Assembly: GCF_900170035.1 (NCBI RefSeq)
Contig: NZ_LT828542.1
Span: forward strand, 144,442 to 176,833
Origin: Desulfamplus magnetovallimortis
Lineage (GTDB): Bacteria; Desulfobacterota; Desulfobacteria; Desulfobacterales; Desulfobacteraceae
Length of the DNA: 32,392 bases
Direction of reading: 5' to 3'
Below the pieces are notes generated by a model that saw only the letters and a list, made by a program, of their open reading frames with translations, searched no databases and was not told the origin of the DNA. The stretch's first letter is position 1, and each line of letters begins with the position of its first letter. Below, piece after piece: positions 2,990-32,392 of this stretch. Both the position numbers and the translations under genes were made by a program.

Positions 2990-3883
2990 TTGAAAAACGA
3001 ACATACTGAATGGCAAAAATCATCCTTTATGCTTCTCTTAATACTTTTTATAACCATATCATTGACACCTACCCAGGCAAAAGCTGAGCCGGAACTTTCC
3101 CTTTCATCATTGACAGTCAATGCCGGAGAAGCCTTTCAAATTGAGCTTTCCATTGACACTGACGGTCAGGAGATTTCAGCTATTTCCACTGATCTTAAAT
3201 ATGATCCTGCAATAATACAGATAACAGGTGCAGAACCAGGCCCTGCTGCCGACTCATCCGGAAAAACTGTCATGAGCAATGAGGTGGAGTCCGGTACATA
3301 CCGTATGCTTATACTTTCACTTTCCAGCAATGCCTCTGTGGATGACGGAATTATTGCATACATAACAGGCACGATAAGCAGCAATGCTCCCGGGCATATA
3401 TCAACAATCATACAACTTCCCACAGTTTCGGATCCAGATGCAAATCGTGTAATAGTGCAATTTGATTCAGCTTTTATCACAATAAATGGCAGTGACCTGC
3501 CTGATGAGATAACTGTAAATTCGGTATTGACAGAAGGAGCCTCTTCCATGTCAGTTTCTGCCGGAAGTTATATAAAAGCTTTTGGTTCACAGGGGGCAAA
3601 CAGGCTTACCATATACTCCGGAGGGCGTGTTAACTGCCTTAATTTCATTGGTGCCAACATACTGGACATCAATGAGCCTTCATCAAATTTCACTCTACAT
3701 CGTTCAGGCGCAATGGTGACACTATCAAGCAGCAGCGGCACCCTGATAAAGATTCCTGCTACTTTGACAACCCAGACCCTAAATTTTGAAGAGAGCAGTT
3801 TTGATCTTGTAATAGACAGCGGAAATGTCATGCTGGGAAACCAGGTTATAGGCCTTGATCAATCTTATATCAACACTCCTTAA
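2990..3883 (+). CDS. Exported cohesin-domain protein with C-terminal shared module
   Basis: A 297-residue exported protein. The start is TTG at 2990, preceded by AAAGGAG. A signal peptide (residues about 1-32, ending TQAKA) is followed by a cohesin-like domain, about residues 35-162: LSLSSLTVNAGEAFQIELSI, then ISAISTDLKYDPAIIQI, the typical opening strands, and a closing VQFDSAFITING. Cohesins bind dockerin modules and assemble extracellular complexes. The remaining 120 residues (GSYIKAFGSQGANRLTIYSG ... LHRSGAMVTL ... IKIPATLTTQTLNF ... VIDSGNVMLGNQVIG) form a module also found in the hydrolase-like protein at 14339-16240 and the damaged gene at 10140; its function is unknown to me. A dockerin remnant 3.4 kb downstream supports a cohesin-dockerin system in this genome. 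It may be co-transcribed with the beta-helix gene 130 bp downstream. Confidence 0.75.
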   Translation: MKNEHTEWQKSSFMLLLILFITISLTPTQAKAEPELSLSSLTVNAGEAFQIELSIDTDGQEISAISTDLKYDPAIIQITGAEPGPAADSSGKTVMSNEVESGTYRMLILSLSSNASVDDGIIAYITGTISSNAPGHISTIIQLPTVSDPDANRVIVQFDSAFITINGSDLPDEITVNSVLTEGASSMSVSAGSYIKAFGSQGANRLTIYSGGRVNCLNFIGANILDINEPSSNFTLHRSGAMVTLSSSSGTLIKIPATLTTQTLNFEESSFDLVIDSGNVMLGNQVIGLDQSYINTP

Positions 3884-4013
3884 TGAAATAAAATTTTACT
3901 TCCATAAAAATATTGTAACACCTTAATTTTAAGGTCAACCACAAAGGTTTGCACCTACGGGTGAACTGCGTCCAACAGAGAGCAGAGCCGCCGACACAAA
4001 AAAGGAGGATAAA

Positions 4014-6131
4014 GTGATAAAAAAAACATTGCTGTACGAAAAGACAATGTTACCTAAAATTTCATGGAAACTGCTGTACGAAAAGACATTGACACCTAAA
4101 ATTTCATGGAAACTGCTGTACGAAAAGAGATTGAGACCTAAAATTTCATGGAAACTGCTGTACGAAAAGAGATTGAGGCCTAAAATTCCATGGAAAACTT
4201 TTGCCTGTGCAATCTCTCTTTTATCACTTTTTACAGTGTCAGTACCAGCCGCAGAGCTTGAACTTTACCCCAACTTCCATGCCATGGGCGTGATTGTCAC
4301 CCTTGAAGCTGGTGAAGACCCTGATTCCAATGCGGAAATTTCTGTAAAATATCGGGAAGCAGGGGGAGATTGGAGGCAGGCTTTTACTCCAACACGCACA
4401 ACCTCTTTACAATTCATAGGCTCTCTTTTTTATCTGTCACCAGATACCCTTTATGATGTAAGTGTGGAGTTCAGTGACACTGCCGGCACCCTTGACGGTT
4501 TTGTACTTGAGGGAAGCAGAGCTACCCGAGGAAATATTGATATTCCATCCCCCATTAACAGCTACTTTGCTGCTCCTGATGGTGAAGGCATGGATTGTAC
4601 CATCGGAATGCCATGCTCCCTTTCCCAAGCCATATCCATGGCCCAGGCAGGGGATGAGATTGTGCTTTCAGGGGGTACATATTACCAGGGTGGCTTTTCA
4701 ATGCCCGTTTCCGGCAGCGAAGATACACCTGTGGTTATTCGGGGGATGGAAAACGAAAAAGCTGTGATAAGCGGTGCAGATCCCCAGATTTTTGTCTGGG
4801 AACCTGCGGGAAATGGCCTTTATATATCAGATATCAATGTGCCTGATACCCATCTTGTTACAGTGGATGGAGAGCGTCTTTTTCCCTATGAAAGCCTTGA
4901 AAGCCTTGAAAATCTAACCCACGGTATTTCAGGATTTTATTGCAGTGATACCCTTTTATACCTGCATCTGATGGAGGATAAAGAGCCAAATCTTTCTGAG
5001 GTTCTTGTATCCCGTTTTAACTATGCATTTATGGTGGAGCAGGATCATATTTTTTTCCTTGATATCACGTTTACCCATTTTGGCTGTGGAAGCTGGGCCA
5101 AAGCTATCTACCTAAATAATGCCAATGATATCCTTGTGCGCAACTGCACCTTTGCCGTAAATGACCTTGGAGTTGGCCTGAAACGCAGCTCATCACGCAA
5201 TTTAATTGAGTATTGTGAATTTTATGATACCATTTTCCAATGGCCATGGCATCCTGTAAAGGATTTCTCCCACCTTGAGACCGGCGGTATAAGGTTTTAT
5301 GACCCTGTAAATGGCCGTGGTAATGTTATAAGGCACAACACCTTCCACGACTATTTTGACGGATTTGGAGTGAGTCCGGAAAGTTGTAGTGAAATCACCA
5401 ATGAAACCGATGTTTACGGCAACCTTGTTTATAATGTGGGTGATGATGGCGTGGAGGTTGATGGCAGAGCAGCCAATGTTCGCCTGTGGGACAATGAGTT
5501 CCAGGATGTTTTAATGGGTATATCACTTGCTCCTGTTTATGACGGGCCTGTATATGCAATTTACAATGTTATCCACAGGACAGGTGCCGGAAACAGCGAA
5601 TACACAGGAAGCCCTTTTAAATTCAACAGTGGGTATGACAAATCAGGCACAATGTACCTTTTCCACAACACCTGTGATGCGTGGTATTCCGGTAATAACG
5701 GCATCTATATCAAGGCTCCGGGCACATGGGATAATATTGTATCCCGCAATAACATCTTTTCCGGTACTGATTACGCTCTTCATAACTACAACACAACACA
5801 GCCCGTGGATCTTGATTATGATCTTGTCTATACCAGCCGCACCGATGAATATATCTACTGGACAGGTGTAAACCCCAAACACATCCCTGATCTTCAAACT
5901 TTTCAATCCCTTACCTATCAAGAGACAAATGGGTTAAATGCAGAACCTGAATTTACAAATCCCCAAATTGCTGATTACAGCTTAATGCCTGACAGTTCTG
6001 CCATTGATGCCGGTGTTGTTCTGCCCGGAATAAACGATAATTATAAGGGCTTTGCCCCTGATTTGGGAGCATTTGAAAAGGATTTTAATGTATCAATATC
6101 AAATCCTGCAAATTTGAAAATTGAGTGGTAA
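4014..6131 (+). CDS. Exported right-handed parallel beta-helix protein
   Basis: A 705-residue secreted protein with the right-handed parallel beta-helix (pectate-lyase-like) fold. The start is GTG 4014, set by AAAGGAGG. Residues 6-61 are four tandem copies of a 14-residue unit (LLYEKRLRPKISWK type), then a signal peptide (FACAISLLSLFTVSVPAAE). A fibronectin-III-like stretch (about 80-160) precedes the helix. The helix begins at SLSQAISMAQAGDEIVLSGG and shows repeated coil steps (NANDILVRNCTF, SRNLIEYCEF, GNVIRHNTFHDY, DVYGNLVYNVGDDGVEVDG). The end, SAIDAGV...GFAPDLGAFE, is typical of these proteins. Substrate and enzyme activity cannot be told: the fold covers polysaccharide lyases, hydrolases and adhesins. 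The location after a cohesin-domain gene suggests an extracellular carbohydrate-related role. Confidence 0.8.
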   Translation: MIKKTLLYEKTMLPKISWKLLYEKTLTPKISWKLLYEKRLRPKISWKLLYEKRLRPKIPWKTFACAISLLSLFTVSVPAAELELYPNFHAMGVIVTLEAGEDPDSNAEISVKYREAGGDWRQAFTPTRTTSLQFIGSLFYLSPDTLYDVSVEFSDTAGTLDGFVLEGSRATRGNIDIPSPINSYFAAPDGEGMDCTIGMPCSLSQAISMAQAGDEIVLSGGTYYQGGFSMPVSGSEDTPVVIRGMENEKAVISGADPQIFVWEPAGNGLYISDINVPDTHLVTVDGERLFPYESLESLENLTHGISGFYCSDTLLYLHLMEDKEPNLSEVLVSRFNYAFMVEQDHIFFLDITFTHFGCGSWAKAIYLNNANDILVRNCTFAVNDLGVGLKRSSSRNLIEYCEFYDTIFQWPWHPVKDFSHLETGGIRFYDPVNGRGNVIRHNTFHDYFDGFGVSPESCSEITNETDVYGNLVYNVGDDGVEVDGRAANVRLWDNEFQDVLMGISLAPVYDGPVYAIYNVIHRTGAGNSEYTGSPFKFNSGYDKSGTMYLFHNTCDAWYSGNNGIYIKAPGTWDNIVSRNNIFSGTDYALHNYNTTQPVDLDYDLVYTSRTDEYIYWTGVNPKHIPDLQTFQSLTYQETNGLNAEPEFTNPQIADYSLMPDSSAIDAGVVLPGINDNYKGFAPDLGAFEKDFNVSISNPANLKIEW
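4029..4196 (+). repeat. Four tandem 42-bp repeats within the N-terminus
   Basis: Four in-frame 42-bp units at 4029-4070, 4071-4112, 4113-4154 and 4155-4196, each encoding (K)LLYEK-x-x-x-PKI-x-W-K. Units 3 and 4 are nearly identical, and units 1 and 2 differ at a few bases. The repeats lie before the hydrophobic part of the signal peptide, lengthening its charged N-region from a few residues to more than 60. Confidence 0.95.
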
Positions 6132-6941: not shown

Positions 6942-6952
6942 TATCAGGTATA

Positions 6953-7126
6953 TTCAAAATCGACATCTTATTGCTTTTTTTAGTTATTGAATTTGTCTGA
7001 ACCAGGATAACCAGGATGGATAGGATGCTCAGGATAGAGATAATCCTGCCTTATCCTGTTAATCTTGGGAATCCTGATTCAGACAGTATTAACAAGGCTC
7101 AAGATGTTGTATGTGTCGGTTTTGAG
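6953..7126 (+). repeat. MITE-like element, copy 2, with 6-bp target duplication
   Basis: A 174-bp copy with ends TTCAAAATCGACA and TGTCGGTTTTGAG. The bases just outside are GGTATA on both sides (6947-6952 and 7127-7132), a clean 6-bp direct repeat as left by transposition. It contains the central GTCTGAACCAGGAT / ATCCTGATTCAGAC hairpin. Confidence 0.9.
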
Positions 7127-7294
7127 GGTATAACAAATGCTAAACTCAGACTTTTACAATGCCGTTCCGTTCGCTGTACTCACGGCACAATTCAATCAAA
7201 ATATGTAAATAAACATTACCTTGATGCTAACTTCGTTTACATTGACAGACATATCTTGTTTTTAAAGGGTGTTATTCTATTATTCTGTTAATGA

Positions 7295-7447
7295 AGTTTA
7301 CAATATCTGTACTGCCTGAATCTTTTTAAATTGAATGGAGGTATTGATTATGTCTTGAATGGTCTTCAGGAGGGTGATATCAATGGAGATGGCGTGACAA
7401 ATATACAGGATGTTATAATTCTTGTTGATTTTGTGCTTGGTGTATAA
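7295..7447 (+). pseudogene. Dockerin-domain gene remnant
   Basis: A frame without a start, open from an in-frame TGA (7292) to TAA (7445-7447), ends in EGDINGDGVTNIQDVIILVD followed by FVLGV. That is a dockerin-type calcium-binding loop (D-x-N-x-D-G......D) plus helix, the classical C-terminal end of dockerin-bearing proteins. Only one of the usual two loops is recognisable, and nothing resembling a catalytic domain is in front of it. It lies between MITE copies 2 and 3. A complete dockerin protein would dock onto a cohesin such as the one encoded at 2990-3883. I infer that the body of the gene was lost. The stretch 7133-7294 shows nothing else I can assign. Confidence 0.6.
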
Positions 7448-7504: not shown

Positions 7505-7678
7505 CTCAAAATCGACATCTTATTGCTTTTTCAGAAGTTATTGCAGTTGTCTGAACCAGGATAACCAGGATGGATAGGATGCTCAGGATAGATAATCCTG
7601 CCTTATCTTGTTAATCTTGGGAATCCTGATTCAGACAGTGTTGACAAGGCTTACAAGATCATATGTGTCGACTTTGAG
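7505..7678 (+). repeat. MITE-like element, copy 3
   Basis: A 174-bp copy with both ends well preserved (CTCAAAATCGACATC ... TGTCGACTTTGAG) and the central hairpin intact. Flanks TCGTTA and AAGATA do not match, so no target duplication remains. The following 7679-7858 stretch contains no gene I can support. Confidence 0.9.
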
Positions 7679-8638: not shown

Positions 8639-9508
8639 ATGCAAAAAAATTTTCAAGGGCTTTTAACCATACATATATCTGTCCTTCTGTTCAGCATGTC
8701 AGGATTGTTCGGCAAATTTCTTCACATATCTCCGAAACTGATTGTTTTTGGAAGAACTGCATTTGCAAGCATTGTGCTTGTCATGGTTCTGCATATCCTT
8801 AAGATTCCCGTCAGGTATAAGAACAGGAAAGATCTCATGGGATTTTTGGTCATGGGAGCCATTCTTGCTGTTCATTGGGTGACATTTTTTTACTCAATAC
8901 AGATCTCCACCGTAGCCATAGGTCTGCTCTCCTTTTCATCATATCCTATATTTGTCACTTTTCTTGAACCATTATTTTTCAATGAAAAACTTCTTTTAAG
9001 AGATATTGGCATCTCTTTAATTGTATTTTCAGGTCTTGTTCTGGTGGTTCCCGAGTTTGACCTTTCAAACAACCTTACTCTGGGAGCCTTGTGGGGTACT
9101 GTTTCAGGCTTTACCTTTGCACTACTCTCCATACTTAACAAAAAATATCTTATAAAATATTCCTCACTCACCATAGCATTTTATCAGGACGGGATTGCAT
9201 GCATGGCTCTTATGCCTTTTATCGGTGGGGAAATTTTCGATATAACTCCATACGATATAGGTATGGTTGCAATACTTGGTGTTGTTTTCACAGCCCTTGC
9301 CCATACCCTTTTTATACAGGGAATGGTAAGGGTGAAAGCACAACTTGCAAGCATTATCACTTGTTTAGAACCTGTTTATGGGATATTGTTTGCTATGGTT
9401 CTGCTGGGTGAAATCCCTTCAATCAAGGTTCTCGGTGGCGGAGTTATAATTATAGGCGGGATTTTGTACGCAACTTATCAATCAAGAGCCAATGCTTCCA
9501 ATGTTTAG
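8639..9508 (+). CDS. EamA-domain transporter (drug/metabolite transporter family)
   Basis: A 289-residue inner-membrane protein with two EamA repeats and about ten hydrophobic spans. The first repeat covers about residues 8-140 (LFSMSGLFGKFLHISPKLIV, ILAVHWVTFFYSIQ). The second covers about 148-283 (GALWGTVSGFTFALLSILNK, ITCLEPVYGILFAMVLLGE, GGGVIIIGGILYATY). This family exports or imports amino acids, nucleotide-like metabolites and drugs; substrate cannot be predicted here. The start ATG 8639 follows GTGGAG. A diverged fragment of a second EamA gene lies at 12130-12440, so this genome region has or had two paralogues. Confidence 0.9.
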   Translation: MQKNFQGLLTIHISVLLFSMSGLFGKFLHISPKLIVFGRTAFASIVLVMVLHILKIPVRYKNRKDLMGFLVMGAILAVHWVTFFYSIQISTVAIGLLSFSSYPIFVTFLEPLFFNEKLLLRDIGISLIVFSGLVLVVPEFDLSNNLTLGALWGTVSGFTFALLSILNKKYLIKYSSLTIAFYQDGIACMALMPFIGGEIFDITPYDIGMVAILGVVFTALAHTLFIQGMVRVKAQLASIITCLEPVYGILFAMVLLGEIPSIKVLGGGVIIIGGILYATYQSRANASNV

Positions 9509-12133: not shown

Positions 12134-12440
12134 AACCTGTTTATGGGATATTGTTTGCTCTGATTCTGCTGGGCGAAATTCATTCAATCAGGATTATTGG
12201 GGGCGGAGTTATTATTCTCAAAATCGACAACTATAACATCTTGAGCCTTGTCAATACTGTCTGAATCAGGATTCCCAAGATTAACAAAGATAAGGCAGGA
12301 TTATCTATCCTGAACATCCTATCCATCCTGGTTATCCTGATTCAGACAAATGTAATAACTGCTGATAAAGCAGTAAGATGTCGATTTTGAGTATTATTAT
12401 TAGCGATATTTTGTACGCCACTAATCAACAGCAAAAAAGT
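12130..12440 (+). pseudogene. EamA transporter fragment, split by MITE copy 4
   Basis: 12130-12216 encodes LEPVYGILFALILLGEIHSI and then RIIGGGVII. After the MITE, 12392-12440 continues IISDILYATNQQQKSA. Together they match the last 40 or so residues of the intact EamA protein at 8639-9508 (LEPVYGILFAMVLLGEIPSI, GGGVIIIGGILYATYQ). Most differences are conservative, so this is the remnant of a diverged paralogue rather than a fresh copy. The 5' part of the gene is missing. No other gene is supported in 12441-12557. Confidence 0.85.
12217..12391 (-). repeat. MITE-like element, copy 4, with 7-bp target duplication and inferable empty site
   Basis: A 175-bp reverse-orientation copy bounded by CTCAAAATCGACA and TGTCGATTTTGAG. 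TATTATT lies immediately on both sides (12210-12216 and 12392-12398). Removing the element and one TATTATT rejoins the EamA fragment in frame (GGVIII-SDILYAT), codon for codon against GGVIIIGGILYAT of the intact paralogue. It contains the central hairpin with the family's AGGAT/ATCCT arms. Confidence 0.95.
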
Positions 12441-12557
12441 GCATCTTTCATATCATGCCAAAAATTCTTTACATTTTTTTTGGTGCAGGTTCCGGTAGAT
12501 GTCAAGCATGAACACTCACGGAATTTTAGGAAAAAAATGAAACCTAACAAAGTAGAA

Positions 12558-13949
12558 CTAAACAATCTTCAAATATAGAGAGGTGTTCTGTTCTGCTAAT
12601 TGCAATAGAGCTTCTGAAAATCCTGATTTACTAAATAAAATATAGTATTTCCGGGCATCTGCATGCCACTTCACTTTTTGGGATTTCTCTTTCAGCCAGT
12701 AAAACAGTTCCACATCTGTTTTTTGCTTCGTATATTTACATTCTCCAAAAATAATTTTATTCTCATCATCTGACAGTGCGACAATATCAATCTCTTCATT
12801 TTTGTTCCACCATGTTCCCGATTTCAAAATTTTGAAATCAATCTCCCCTTTGCTGCTGAGATCAAGCAGTTTTTCCCTGCAGATCTCTTCATAAACAAAA
12901 CTGACGTGGTTATCACGAAAATTCTGTTTTAGCTTATCTACAACAAAGTCCCGCTGATCCATCTCCAGGAAATGCCGATAAGGGTAAACAAACTTGAACC
13001 AAAAGGTGATAAAATTATCCTTAATCCGGTAGAGTCCTTTTTTGCTTTTTTCCGGATTTTTCTCTGTGACCGGTACGATTCGTTCCACAAGATCAAGCTC
13101 CATAAGCGTCTTTAAATATTTTGTCATGCCGCTTTGATTGATTCCTAAATTTGCTGAAATTTTTCCTATTTTATGATTTCCAGCGGCGATGGATTTGATA
13201 ATTGAAAAGTAGGTCCCGATCTCCCCGACCTCTCTTTCGAGCAGAAAAAAGGGTTCTTCATACAAAAAACTTTGTGGGGCTAAAATATTGGTTTTAATTG
13301 CTTCAAAGATATCCGACAATGGTCTGAACAATTCAATGTATTTGGGCACACCTCCGGTCACAGCATAATACTCTATAAGATCAATTTTTTTGGGGCTTTC
13401 AAAGAACTGATCGTAATAGGAGAATGGAATCTGCTTCAATCGGATCTGTCCGGTTCGTCGGCCGTATAGGGGACTTGAGTAAGATAGGGTTTGCTGAACC
13501 ATCATGTTGATAAGTGATCCGCATAAGATGACCATGATGTTGCTATTAATCAACAACTCATCCCATACCTTTTGGAAAATTGATGGGAATGCTTTATTTC
13601 CTTTTCCGAGATATTGGAACTCGTCAATGACCAAAATTTTTCTTTGATTGGGCAAATGAAGATTGAATAGGGAAAAGATATCATGCCACTCCAGAATCGC
13701 TGCTTTCTGTAATAGAAAATTGCCAGTCATCTCAGCCAATTGATGCTGAAACGTTTTTTTATTTTCATTTTCTGATTCTTCAGTTGCCAAAAAATATAGG
13801 GATTGTTTATTTTTGATAAACTCTTTAATCAAGGTGGTTTTGCCAATCCGTCTTCTACCGTAGAGAATAATAAGAGATGATCTATTTTGATCATATTCAT
13901 CTTTTAGGTATTGTAACTCTGAAATTCTATTGACAAAATGGTTTTTCAT
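12558..13949 (-). CDS. ATPase of the archaeal-type (ATPase_2) family with DUF234-like C-terminus
   Basis: A 463-residue P-loop ATPase. Walker A is LYGRRRIGKTTLIKEF (about residues 29-44), Walker B is KILVIDEFQYLGKG (about 103-116), a sensor-like strand is MVILCGSLI, and the following family signature is LYGRRTGQIRLKQIPF. A winged-helix-like part (KIGKISANLGINQSGMTKYL) and a C-terminal nuclease-like DUF234 region follow. In the latter, WWNKNEEIDIVALSDDENKI and IIFGECKYTK form the E-x-D ... E-x-K pattern of PD-(D/E)XK enzymes. Length is normal, so it seems intact. The function of this family in bacteria is unproven; genomes often carry many copies. GGAG precedes the start, and a perfect 32-bp palindrome ends 12 bp upstream of it, suggesting autoregulation. 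Confidence 0.85.
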   Translation of the reverse strand: MKNHFVNRISELQYLKDEYDQNRSSLIILYGRRRIGKTTLIKEFIKNKQSLYFLATEESENENKKTFQHQLAEMTGNFLLQKAAILEWHDIFSLFNLHLPNQRKILVIDEFQYLGKGNKAFPSIFQKVWDELLINSNIMVILCGSLINMMVQQTLSYSSPLYGRRTGQIRLKQIPFSYYDQFFESPKKIDLIEYYAVTGGVPKYIELFRPLSDIFEAIKTNILAPQSFLYEEPFFLLEREVGEIGTYFSIIKSIAAGNHKIGKISANLGINQSGMTKYLKTLMELDLVERIVPVTEKNPEKSKKGLYRIKDNFITFWFKFVYPYRHFLEMDQRDFVVDKLKQNFRDNHVSFVYEEICREKLLDLSSKGEIDFKILKSGTWWNKNEEIDIVALSDDENKIIFGECKYTKQKTDVELFYWLKEKSQKVKWHADARKYYILFSKSGFSEALLQLAEQNTSLYLKIV

Positions 13950-14062: not shown

Positions 14063-14227
14063 CTCAAAATCGACATCTTATTGTTTTTTGAGCGGTTATT
14101 GAATTTGTCTGAATCAGGATAACCAGGATGCTCAGGATAAATAATCCTGATTTATCCTGTTAATCTTGGGTATCCTGATTCAGACAGTGTTTACAAGGCT
14201 CAAAAGATCATAGCTGTCGGCTTTGAG
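14063..14227 (+). repeat. MITE-like element, copy 5, with 6-bp target duplication
   Basis: A 165-bp copy, shorter than the others because GGATGGATA is missing from the AGGAT-rich arm. Ends are CTCAAAATCGACA and TGTCGGCTTTGAG, flanked on both sides by TTTATA (14057-14062 and 14228-14233). The central inverted repeat GTCTGAATCAGGAT / ATCCTGATTCAGAC is perfect over 14 bp here. Confidence 0.92.
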
Positions 14228-21683: not shown

Positions 21684-21870
21684 TTTTACCGTGAAAATGA
21701 TTATCATTTTTATAGTTGGGGGTGATTGATACACATTCATGCCCGTTTACCATGAAAATGACTATTATTTTTATACTTGGTGGCAATCAATACACAAACA
21801 TGAGTGTTACCGTGAAAATGACTATCATTTTTATATTTAGGGGTGATTGATACGTAATCAATCATGCCCG
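21684..21870. repeat. Three tandem ~60-bp repeats with Fur-box-like palindromes
   Basis: Three consecutive units, each running TTACC(G/A)TGAAAATGA.TAT.ATTTTTATA...GG(T/G)G.(T/A)AATCAATAC or close variants. The palindromic cores lie at 21693-21711, 21754-21772 and 21814-21832. The first core, GAAAATGATTATCATTTTT, agrees with the classical 19-bp Fur box GATAATGATAATCATTATC at 15 positions by my count; the third agrees at 14 and the second at 13. They lie 20-160 bp upstream of the hemerythrin-GGDEF start. A fourth, weaker relative is upstream of the hydrolase-like gene (16269-16297). Confidence 0.75.
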
Positions 21871-21897
21871 TTTAGACGTATTTTAAACTCAAAATCG

Positions 21898-22139
21898 ACA
21901 TCTTATTGCTTTTTCCGAAGTTATTGCAGTTGTCTGAACCAGGATAACCAGGATGGATAGGATGCTCAGGATAAATAATCTTGCCTTATCTTGTTAATCT
22001 TGGGAATCCTGTTCAGACAGTGTTGACAAGGCTTACAAGATCATAGGTGTCGATTTTGAAGCCTTATCCTGTTAATCCTGGGTATCCTGATTCAGACAGT
22101 GTTTAAAAGGCTCAAAAGGTCATAGCTGTCGGCTTTGAG
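21898..22139 (+). repeat. MITE-like element, copy 6, with a partial second unit
   Basis: A complete unit (21898 to about 22059) is followed immediately by the right half of another (GCCTTATCCTGTTAATC ... CTGTCGGCTTTGAG, ending 22139). The outer flanks are TTTTAAA on the left and TTTTAAG on the right, a near-perfect direct repeat. This looks like tandem duplication or unequal exchange between copies. The following 22140-22252 shows no gene. Confidence 0.88.
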
Positions 22140-24757: not shown

Positions 24758-24932
24758 CTCAAAGCCTACATCTTTGATCTTTTGAGCCTTTTAAACACTG
24801 TCTGAATCAGGATACCCAGGATTAACAGAGATAAGGCAGGATTATTTATCCTGAGCATCCTTCTTATCATGGTTATCCTGATGCAGACAAATTCAATAGC
24901 TGGTCAAAAAGCAATAAGATGTCGATTTTGAG
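24758..24932 (-). repeat. MITE-like element, copy 7
   Basis: A 175-bp reverse-orientation copy with ends CTCAAAGCCTACATC and TGTCGATTTTGAG and the internal GTCTGAATCAGGATACC / GGTTATCCTGATGCAGAC hairpin. Flanks do not match each other. It lies between the divergent acyl-CoA synthetase and methyltransferase genes, so it fills most of their shared promoter region. Confidence 0.9.
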
Positions 24933-24985: not shown

Positions 24986-25891
24986 ATGAACAAATATATA
25001 AAGCCACAAAAAACAAGTTCACCTGATACAATATCCCGAGGTGATTTACCAGAAAGTATTGTATCCCATTATGGTTCCAGTAATCTTGAATCAAAAATTT
25101 ATGATGGCCTTGCAAAGGCCGGAAAAGATACAGATAATCTTGCCATCAAGGATCTCTCTGTCATTGACCAGCTTCATACAGGTGGGCATATTGCAACCCT
25201 GGAACTTGCGCACAAAGCAGCTATTAAAGCAGGATATCATCTTTTTGATGCAGGCTGTGGCATAGGTGGATCTTCAAGGCTTCTTGCAGAAAAGTTTCAG
25301 TGCAGAGTAACAGGTATGGATCTTGTACCATCATTTGTTCAAGTGTCTGAAAAGCTCTCCATATCTACACATACAGAAGATAGTGTCAATTTTGTCTGCG
25401 GAAACATCATTGATACAGAACTGAAATCAGAAATATTTGATATGGTATGGTGCCAGCATACACTCATGAATATTGAGAATAAAAGGAAAGTTTTTGAGGA
25501 GTTCATGCGGATACTCAAACCTGGCGGAACAGTTGTTTTGCATGAAATCCTCAAAGGTGATGACAACATGCAGGAAGGGATAGCACTGCCTGTGCCCTGG
25601 GCAGCAGCTCCTGAGCACTCATTTCTCATCACCATTGATGTTATAAAGAGTATCATAAACGACTGTGGTTTTAAAGTCCGTTTCCTAAATGATGTGACAG
25701 AACAGGCAAAAGTATGGTGGGAAAAGGTTGATGCCGCATTCAGCAAAACAGAAGGAAGCCCCCCAAAACCACTTGGGCCGCATATAATTTTTGGAGAAAA
25801 TGGAAAATTATTTGGAAAAACCATGACACGCAATCTTAATGAGGGGCGTATCCGCATGATTGAGGCTGCATTGATAAGGATTGAATCTTAA
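24986..25891 (+). CDS. Class I SAM-dependent methyltransferase
   Basis: A 301-residue cytosolic methyltransferase with the Rossmann-like SAM fold. Motif I is LFDAGCGIGGSSRLLAE (starting about residue 86), the acidic loop is VTGMDLVPSFV, the motif IV area is FDMVWCQHTLMNIENK, and the post-motif is RILKPGGTVVLHEIL. The N-terminal lid (VSHYGSSNLESKIYDGLAKA) and the C-terminal part resemble sarcosine/dimethylglycine or small-molecule N- and C-methyltransferases, so a small-molecule acceptor is likely, but this is only by resemblance. GGAGA precedes ATG 24986. The gene is flanked by two MITE copies in the same orientation, and its stop codon TAA shares its last base with the beginning of copy 8. 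Confidence 0.85.
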   Translation: MNKYIKPQKTSSPDTISRGDLPESIVSHYGSSNLESKIYDGLAKAGKDTDNLAIKDLSVIDQLHTGGHIATLELAHKAAIKAGYHLFDAGCGIGGSSRLLAEKFQCRVTGMDLVPSFVQVSEKLSISTHTEDSVNFVCGNIIDTELKSEIFDMVWCQHTLMNIENKRKVFEEFMRILKPGGTVVLHEILKGDDNMQEGIALPVPWAAAPEHSFLITIDVIKSIINDCGFKVRFLNDVTEQAKVWWEKVDAAFSKTEGSPPKPLGPHIIFGENGKLFGKTMTRNLNEGRIRMIEAALIRIES

Positions 25892-26064
25892 TCAAAATCG
25901 GCACCTATGATCTTTTGAGCCTTGTCAACATTGTCTGAATCAGGATATCCAAGATTAACAAGATAAGGCAGGATTATTTATCCTGAGCATCCTTTTCATC
26001 CTGGTTATCCTGATTCAGACAAACTCAATAACTGCTCAAAAAGCAATAAAATGTCAATTTTGAG
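25891..26064 (-). repeat. MITE-like element, copy 8
   Basis: A reverse-orientation copy of 174 bp, ends ATCAAAATCGGCACC and TGTCAATTTTGAG. Its first base is the last base of the methyltransferase stop codon. A degenerate partial copy follows (26065-26117: TTTATCCTGGTTCAGACAAA then CTCAAAAACTGC and AAGGTGTCTT). Confidence 0.88.
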
Positions 26065-26140
26065 TATTTATCCTGGTTCAGACAAACTCAAAAACTGCAA
26101 AAACAACAAGGTGTCTTAAAAACAATTTCAAAGAAATTCC

Positions 26141-32377: not shown

Positions 32378-32392
32378 CTCAAAGTCGACACC
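32378..32392 (-). repeat. MITE-like element, copy 9 (cut by window edge)
   Basis: The last 15 bases, CTCAAAGTCGACACC, match the terminal inverted repeat of the family. CGACACC, as in copy 8 (CGGCACC), suggests reverse orientation. Only the end is visible. Confidence 0.55.

Follow-up and report, generated by a model that had tools for sequence, protein, structure and literature searches.

A MITE family of Desulfamplus magnetovallimortis enclosing a hairpin that occurs across phyla and appears to have a GxxExxY gene-bearing form

At least two systems are nested in the short repeats, here called family A, that are abundant in a 32,392-nt stretch of the Desulfamplus magnetovallimortis genome (hereafter the window; it is part of contig C3 of the 6.68-Mb assembly). 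We think it likely that these are a MITE of the DDE type, family A proper, and a separate cross-phylum hairpin, the core, with a gene-bearing form that contains a GxxExxY gene. The family A repeat is a real, ordinary and well supported MITE. What appears to be unusual is the hairpin inside it, which is shared between phyla, and the GxxExxY protein as the partner of this hairpin.

Eight copies of family A lie in the window, together with the first bases of a ninth (32378–32392, forward strand) that is cut by the window end. The first-pass annotation had reported this count and the same starts except for one, which is 21888 and not 21898, and it was also right about the presence of both orientations, the exact repeats at the edges of three copies and a large internal hairpin. 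Copies 1 (2435–2606), 2 (6953–7126), 3 (7505–7678), 5 (14063–14227) and 6 (21888–22060) are on the forward strand; copies 4 (12217–12391), 7 (24758–24932) and 8 (25891–26064) are on the reverse strand. Copy 2 is bordered by a 6-bp target duplication, GGTATA (6947–6952 and 7127–7132), and the stretch 6947–7132 folds as a single long hairpin (-74.2 kcal/mol as RNA, z -7.6). Its inner core occupies 6995–7084 (forward), with the arms GTCTGAACCAGGAT at 6995 and ATCCTGATTCAGAC at 7071–7084, and its edges are those seen in other MITE families. Exact duplications also border copy 4 (7 bp, TATTATT; core 12259–12347) and copy 5 (6 bp, TTTATA; core 14107–14185). Direct repeats were absent at the edges of copies 1 (core 2479–2566), 3 (core 7549–7636), 7 (core 24800–24888) and 8, which has part of another core beside it (26068–26109). 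The ends are CTCAAAATCGACA and TGTCGRYTTTGAG, in agreement with those first described, except at copy 1, where the right end is decayed and its position approximate, and at copy 8, the right end of which has diverged. The right half of a further copy (22061–22139, forward) abuts copy 6 and is fused to it, the outer flanks being TTTTAAA and TTTTAAG. Pairs of family A ends 150–200 bp apart with at most 3 mismatches per end numbered 7 in the window, against a total of 6 over 100 mononucleotide shuffles.

A profile built from the eight window copies gave 310 matches, 137 of them near full length, in a sample of 2,395,686 bases (36% of the assembly, in chosen and therefore non-random contigs). The median length was 174 bp. 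Density was uneven, differing several-fold between contigs, and with 72 profile matches in 400 kb of C3 and 15 in the first 400 kb of C1, the eight copies per 32 kb first noted are atypical as a genome-wide density. Both ends could be assigned in 130 of the 137 near-full-length copies, and the 129 without N formed the set for duplication counts. Exact direct repeats just outside the ends were found at 6 bp in 62 of these 129 copies, at 7 bp in 13, at 5 bp in 5 and at 8 bp in none, and the duplicated target is TAWNTA. When flanks were re-paired at random, repeats of 6 bp averaged 1.6, with at most 7 in 200 rounds, and repeats of 7 bp averaged 0.2. Thus, the flank comparison over many copies that the first-pass annotation had proposed gave duplications far above chance, and its suggestion of a MITE with 6–7 bp AT-rich target duplications and no visible transposase is supported on many genomic copies.

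Uninterrupted relatives were also sought for 75 duplication-bearing sites after joining their flanks. A loose script criterion was passed by 29 of the 75, two of which are self matches (C1:280314 and C9:95271) and several of which are poor; clear empty sites include C3:48265, C3:190604, C4:13323, C3:396311, C1:693381 and C3:156659. The copy at C3:48265–48435 is nested in the loop of an older family A copy and has the duplication TATCTT. Within the window, copy 4 is inserted in an EamA gene fragment, whose 3' end it splits, and the intact 3' end of a paralogue (9365–9508, forward) is the empty version of this target. Open reading frames of at least 150 codons ran across the joint at 4 of 73 joined sites (2 of the 75 were dropped for N) versus 1160 of 1895 TAWNTA positions, and the intergenic placement of the copies may be due to selection or to target choice. 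Many family A copies are young, 24 of the 129 being within 3% of one copy, and copy 3 of the window has 99% identity to 20 other full-length genomic places scored. The same element with its flanks was found in a genome of the same genus (locus L064 in G008) and in Desulfamplus sp. nS315bin3 (locus L176). Extra AGGAT units were seen at C3:63290, 113950, 196040 and 332050. The hairpin middle of family A expands and shrinks.

Reading frames between family A end pairs (2.0 Mb) included no recognisable transposase, and no autonomous element with family A ends was found in 2.0–2.4 Mb of the 6.7 Mb, ends outside the family A matches having been listed in 2.4 Mb. IS1634 elements have target duplications of 5–6 bp and ends starting with C, and in these features IS1634 and other DDE families resemble family A. 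However, the transposase search of the whole assembly, which covered two DDE families (IS1634 and DDE_Tnp_1), found no locus with family A ends, and elements of both families were rejected as its parent. Family A is probably a non-autonomous MITE of the DDE type that would be moved in trans by a transposase, with a 6-bp (sometimes 7-bp) target duplication and a preference for TAWNTA.

The core is a hairpin of ~90 bp. AGGATT units make up its two arrays, which are inverted with respect to each other, and its outer edges, GTCTGAATCAGGAT and ATCCTGATTCAGAC, are fixed. In 2.0 Mb, 166 cores were detected, 119 with family A ends on both sides, 27 with an end on one side and 20 with neither; several of these 20 belong to other MITE families. 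Family B, with the ends TTCTACTTTGTTA, comprises 25 pairs by a loose pattern (some surely chance), 11 of which have a core. Of the 25, seven show an exact 4-bp duplication, and six of these seven have a core, which is degenerate at C2:374414. Family C, with the ends GGGGTTGGTTYTAATTTCGG, comprises three pairs, all with a core, and its 8-bp duplication ATATTTTG is exact in one, retained at 7 of 8 bases in another and absent in the third. When one A, two B and two C elements were compared by BLAST, matches were confined to the core except for 9-bp words, and the edges were identical: A 44–133 matched B 29–118 (87% identity), A 50–134 matched C 41–129, and B 29–118 matched C 26–128. Because the edges of the core stay the same in MITEs whose ends are unrelated and whose duplications are of 4 or 8 bp, the nested architecture is not one element. 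The first-pass annotation had taken the outer terminal repeats and the inner hairpin together as pointing to one specific mobiliser; this is not supported, since the core has its own fixed edges and occurs in other MITEs, alone and across phyla.

It is likely that the core was captured by family A and by at least two other MITE families, in which it is seen, and that it has multiplied with them. Several unrelated transposon families carry this one hairpin, a clean example of such sharing. Bacterial MITEs, of which parts of PMC3733652 name RUP, NEMIS, Bcr1, ERIC and YPAL, resemble family A in being non-coding sequences of 70–300 bp with terminal inverted repeats, a target duplication, many intergenic copies and a hairpin fold; family A differs from them in that its middle is a second repeat that other MITE families also contain and that stands alone in other phyla. 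Some further arrangements were noted. In the family C element at C1:552271–552533, which has a perfect 8-bp duplication, the core loop is split by ~100 bp of other DNA. Another repeat family with the ends AGTAGTTTACACTTTT is present in the window at 2629 and 14244 and has 155 ends in 2.4 Mb, most of the listed pairs having no core; a core between ends similar to AGTAGTTTACACTTTT occurs in four loci of Desulfobacterales HSG16 (L149, L156, L163 and L181).

An exact-arm scan that left out the own genome and very near genomes found at least 49 core stretches in several phyla. Among the matches listed, the hosts are Dehalococcoidia, other Chloroflexota, Desulfobacterota, Bacteroidota, Kapaibacterium, a MAG named cyanobacterium, Candidatus Caenarcanum, Beggiatoa-like bacteria and Methylomonas, the names being, apart from some phylum names, those of the records. 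One core query had 133 matches in a Dehalococcoidia genome (G235) and 77 in its congener (G238), both strands of the palindrome being counted. Among the matches listed in these two genomes, most span the query from ~499 to ~589, or to ~668 where the query has a further arm, and some extend about 20 bp further left; the few that match outer flanks represent orthologous sequence or have nothing to do with the core. In Dehalococcoidia, the core stands alone. Only AA(A/T) is conserved outside these free cores. A target duplication beside them was not clear (2.0 vs 1.6 ± 0.4 for 17 copies, 2.6 vs 2.0 ± 0.3 for 25 copies), and there is thus no direct proof of core movement. For one Dehalococcoidia core that was sought for an empty site, the two flanks were on different contigs. 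One core query had no match in phages, and in plasmids it matched two cyanobacterial records over about half of its length. Among the neighbours of 49 core loci, no gene group was common to more than 3 loci.

The gene-bearing form of the core appears to be a GxxExxY gene between hairpin arms. By HMM, this gene belongs to NCBIfam TIGR04256 and Pfam PF13366 (PDDEXK_3) of the PD-(D/E)XK superfamily. Two such genes are present in the D. magnetovallimortis genome (loci L011 and L012), the family scores of the two being 135 and 150 bits; the protein at L012 has 123 aa, and the protein P0001 matches the family with E 1.9e-38. A script found core arms within 300 bp on both sides of the gene in 5 of 59 GxxExxY loci, namely L012 of the present genome, L192 of Bacteroidales, L303 of Dehalococcoidia, L304 of Cytophagaceae and L308 of Desulfobacteraceae, and by arm positions a sixth genome, Methylomonas (L306), has the same arrangement. 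The gene lies between two core arms at 2399–2924 in L192, and in L303 a complete hairpin is found on each side, the right one overlapping the 3' end of the gene. At L011, the other gene of the present genome, the flanking array is built of another unit, CACGGAA, and the AGGATT core was found at none of the 29 top GxxExxY loci of the phylum, apart from one chance match in L213. In L282 and L308 the arrangement is not that of simple hairpins: several single core arms that point one way precede others that point the opposite way.

GxxExxY genes over the cut-off were found in 13 of 15 chosen core-bearing genomes (G244 and G249 had none, and G249 is probably the same MAG as G008), a proportion that is not directly comparable with the 70 of 198 sampled genomes of the host phylum or the 101 of 198 of the phylum of G245, because the phyla differ. 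Five genus relatives with core-like matches had no GxxExxY match over the cut-off (G001, with one match below it, G003, G007, G008 and G009). Nuclease activity of the protein is assumed from family membership and from the conservation of the D...ExK residues in 30 aligned sequences (D66 in 97%, E76 in 90% and K78 in 90%). Sequence comparison found no solved structural relative, a single-sequence structure model had a pLDDT of 36, too low to be of use, and no relatives were confirmed in viral contigs.

Flanking inverted arrays look general to GxxExxY genes. For each gene, we took the score of the best inverted match that joined ~300 bp upstream to ~300–360 bp downstream; the loci were the best-scoring matches of each search and thus non-random, and 18 was chosen as the mark once the scores had been looked at for the first time. 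Scores of at least 18 were obtained for 13 of 24 GxxExxY loci in the phylum sample (5 cut loci dropped), 16 of 24 in core-bearing genomes (6 dropped) and 7 of 20 in a third set, from the phylum of G245, which leaves 11, 8 and 13 loci, respectively, below the mark. Mismatched upstream and downstream pairs reached it in 1.3–4% of cases (2.1% for the third set, p 5e-11), and none of 96 did when positions in the first two sets were shifted by 900 bp. Rank tests gave p 6e-14 and 3e-13 for these two sets and 0.55 for ParE, a control in which none of 23 loci scored 18 or more (7 dropped); with 600 bp upstream, ParE showed a slight excess of inverted matches (median 10.5 vs 9.5, p 0.045), again with none reaching 18. 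The positive control, Y1_Tnp, gave 11 of 16 (14 dropped). The arms are made of tandem units, with a best period of 9 nt in 17 of 32 arms and of 8–10 nt in 26 of 32.

The type of unit follows the protein. Arms could be sorted into unit classes at 38 of 59 loci (21 dropped), the motif classes having been written after the arms were seen. On the GxxExxY protein tree, in which L208 is a very long branch, these classes require 7 changes compared with 16.8 after shuffling (0 of 200 as low), and nearest tree neighbours share the class in 32 of 38 cases (shuffled 12.8, maximum 25). The AGGATT-core proteins of Chloroflexota, Desulfobacterota and Bacteroidota group together: they require 1 change compared with 4.8 after shuffling, and none of 500 shuffles was as low; the branch support of this group is weak (91/0). 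Two genomes (G241 and G243) each encode GxxExxY proteins that differ in their arms and also stand apart on the tree, and host relatedness alone is therefore insufficient to account for the match between unit and protein.

These associations suggest that the GxxExxY protein most likely acts on the array of its own units, by recognition of the array and processing of the hairpin, and that gene-less hairpins may spread through this processing, as has been proposed for RAYT and REPs. If the protein inserts cores, fixed edges would be expected at GTCTGAATC; mobility by GxxExxY is inferred. The likeness to REP/REPIN sequences and RAYT, as described in parts of PMC2817692 and PMC3733652, lies in a gene between inverted copies of a dispersed palindromic unit, in units and proteins that co-vary and in many gene-less copies. 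The GxxExxY system differs in its protein, which by HMM is PF13366 of the PD-(D/E)XK superfamily and not a tyrosine transposase, and in its units, which form tandem ~9-bp arrays, with one unit type in several phyla. More tentatively, a large class of mobile DNA that has no name could have GxxExxY proteins as its dedicated mobilisers. In this class, inverted tandem arrays of clade-specific ~9-bp units (AGGATT, CACAGAG, CGCAGAG, CGCCAAG, CACGAAT and others) would surround a small PD-(D/E)XK gene in several phyla, hairpins that lack the gene would descend from these units, and DDE MITEs would repeatedly capture the hairpins, which may help synapsis of the MITEs or silence their insertions; we hold this wider proposal as a whole to be possible, at somewhat less than even chances. 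If GxxExxY does move or process its own array, a function would be given to a widespread family, unnamed repeats would be explained, and RAYT/REP would have a nuclease-type counterpart.

It is also conceivable, albeit rather unlikely, that GxxExxY and the arrays form one system that does not serve mobility, the arrays being sites for autoregulation, chromosome organisation or defence, and that MITE transposases and recombination disperse the hairpins. The absence of a clear target duplication at free cores is consistent with this, as are the predominance of cores inside family A in the present genome (119 of 166 with both ends) and the genomes that have core-like matches without a GxxExxY gene over the cut-off. 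However, the many free cores of the Dehalococcoidia genome G235 (133 matches, both strands of the palindrome being counted) require some spreader that serves them, the gene has inverted copies on its two sides, like the gene of a transposable unit, and joint transfer of unit and protein is argued for by the single protein group that shares one unit across Chloroflexota, Desulfobacterota and Bacteroidota.

It is very unlikely that the core is a structured RNA with a function, or a terminator, maintained through selection on base pairing. Six cores folded as DNA all beat their shuffles (z -3.4 to -11.4), which would agree with it. Yet the AGGATT units are conserved and the spacers between them variable, and the spacers of paired arms are no more alike within a copy than between copies: likeness was 10.1 within the same copy vs 12.8 between different copies in Dehalococcoidia (15 copies), and 6.1 vs 5.5 in other genomes (33 copies; 432 of 2000 permutations as high). 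This speaks more for a unit recognised by its DNA sequence than for selection to keep the stem perfect. Rfam gave no match in the window at gathering scores, and at cores it gave sub-threshold plant microRNA matches only, a T-box in L145 being away from the repeat. The idea of an expressed hairpin RNA, raised at the outset, is thus unsupported by Rfam or by compensation between the arms in the variable spacers.

Less probable still is a REPIN nature of the core, with a RAYT (Y1_Tnp) protein as its mover. An inverted pair of short units, intergenic and in high copy number, is what would be expected of a REPIN; Y1_Tnp matches number four in the present genome and occur in 10 of 15 core-bearing genomes, and inverted repeats flank 11 of 16 scored Y1_Tnp loci. 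RAYT was nevertheless rejected as the core mover, since two Dehalococcoidia genomes with cores (G235 and G246) have no Y1_Tnp match and Y1_Tnp genes are not flanked by the core: 30 fetched Y1_Tnp loci gave one core arm, 2.2 kb into L256, the four loci of the present genome gave none, and no GTAG/CGTC foot was noticed by eye. Finally, a single ordinary MITE family whose hairpin arose inside it and has no separate life would fit the presence of the core in all 89 of 89 family A end pairs with a duplication (40–420 bp apart) and the folding of the element at 6947–7132 as one hairpin, but for the core it is already contradicted, and hardly credible, given MITEs that have these 90 bp and edges together with unrelated ends and duplications of 4 or 8 bp, a family B element that has the 4-bp duplication without the core (C7:88223), free cores in Chloroflexota and cores in several phyla.

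Parts of PMC8934634, PMC12085832 and PMC9756366 name GxxExxY, PF13366 or TIGR04256. In the open-access literature, we found neither a described role of the GxxExxY family nor a link between it and dispersed hairpin repeats; the core strings tried occurred in no open-access paper, and other unit strings occurred only in papers unrelated by title. The novelty of the core and of its link with GxxExxY is provisional, as it refers to the open-access literature.

Several other features of the window were observed. A single family B end (TTCTACTTTGTTA) at 12557 lies directly beside an open reading frame at 12558–13949 (DUF234/ATPase_2). Tandem repeats of ~61 bp (TTACCGTGAAAATGAC...) occur three times at 21686–21860, and similar sequence elsewhere in the genome is a target of family A. 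The start of the open reading frame 4014–6131, which encodes a beta-helix protein, contains tandem 42-bp repeats, visible as four 83-nt windows with 42-bp spacing at 3988–4196. A cohesin-domain protein is encoded at 2990–3883, and a reading frame that looks dockerin-like by eye is found near this gene, at about 7370–7447.
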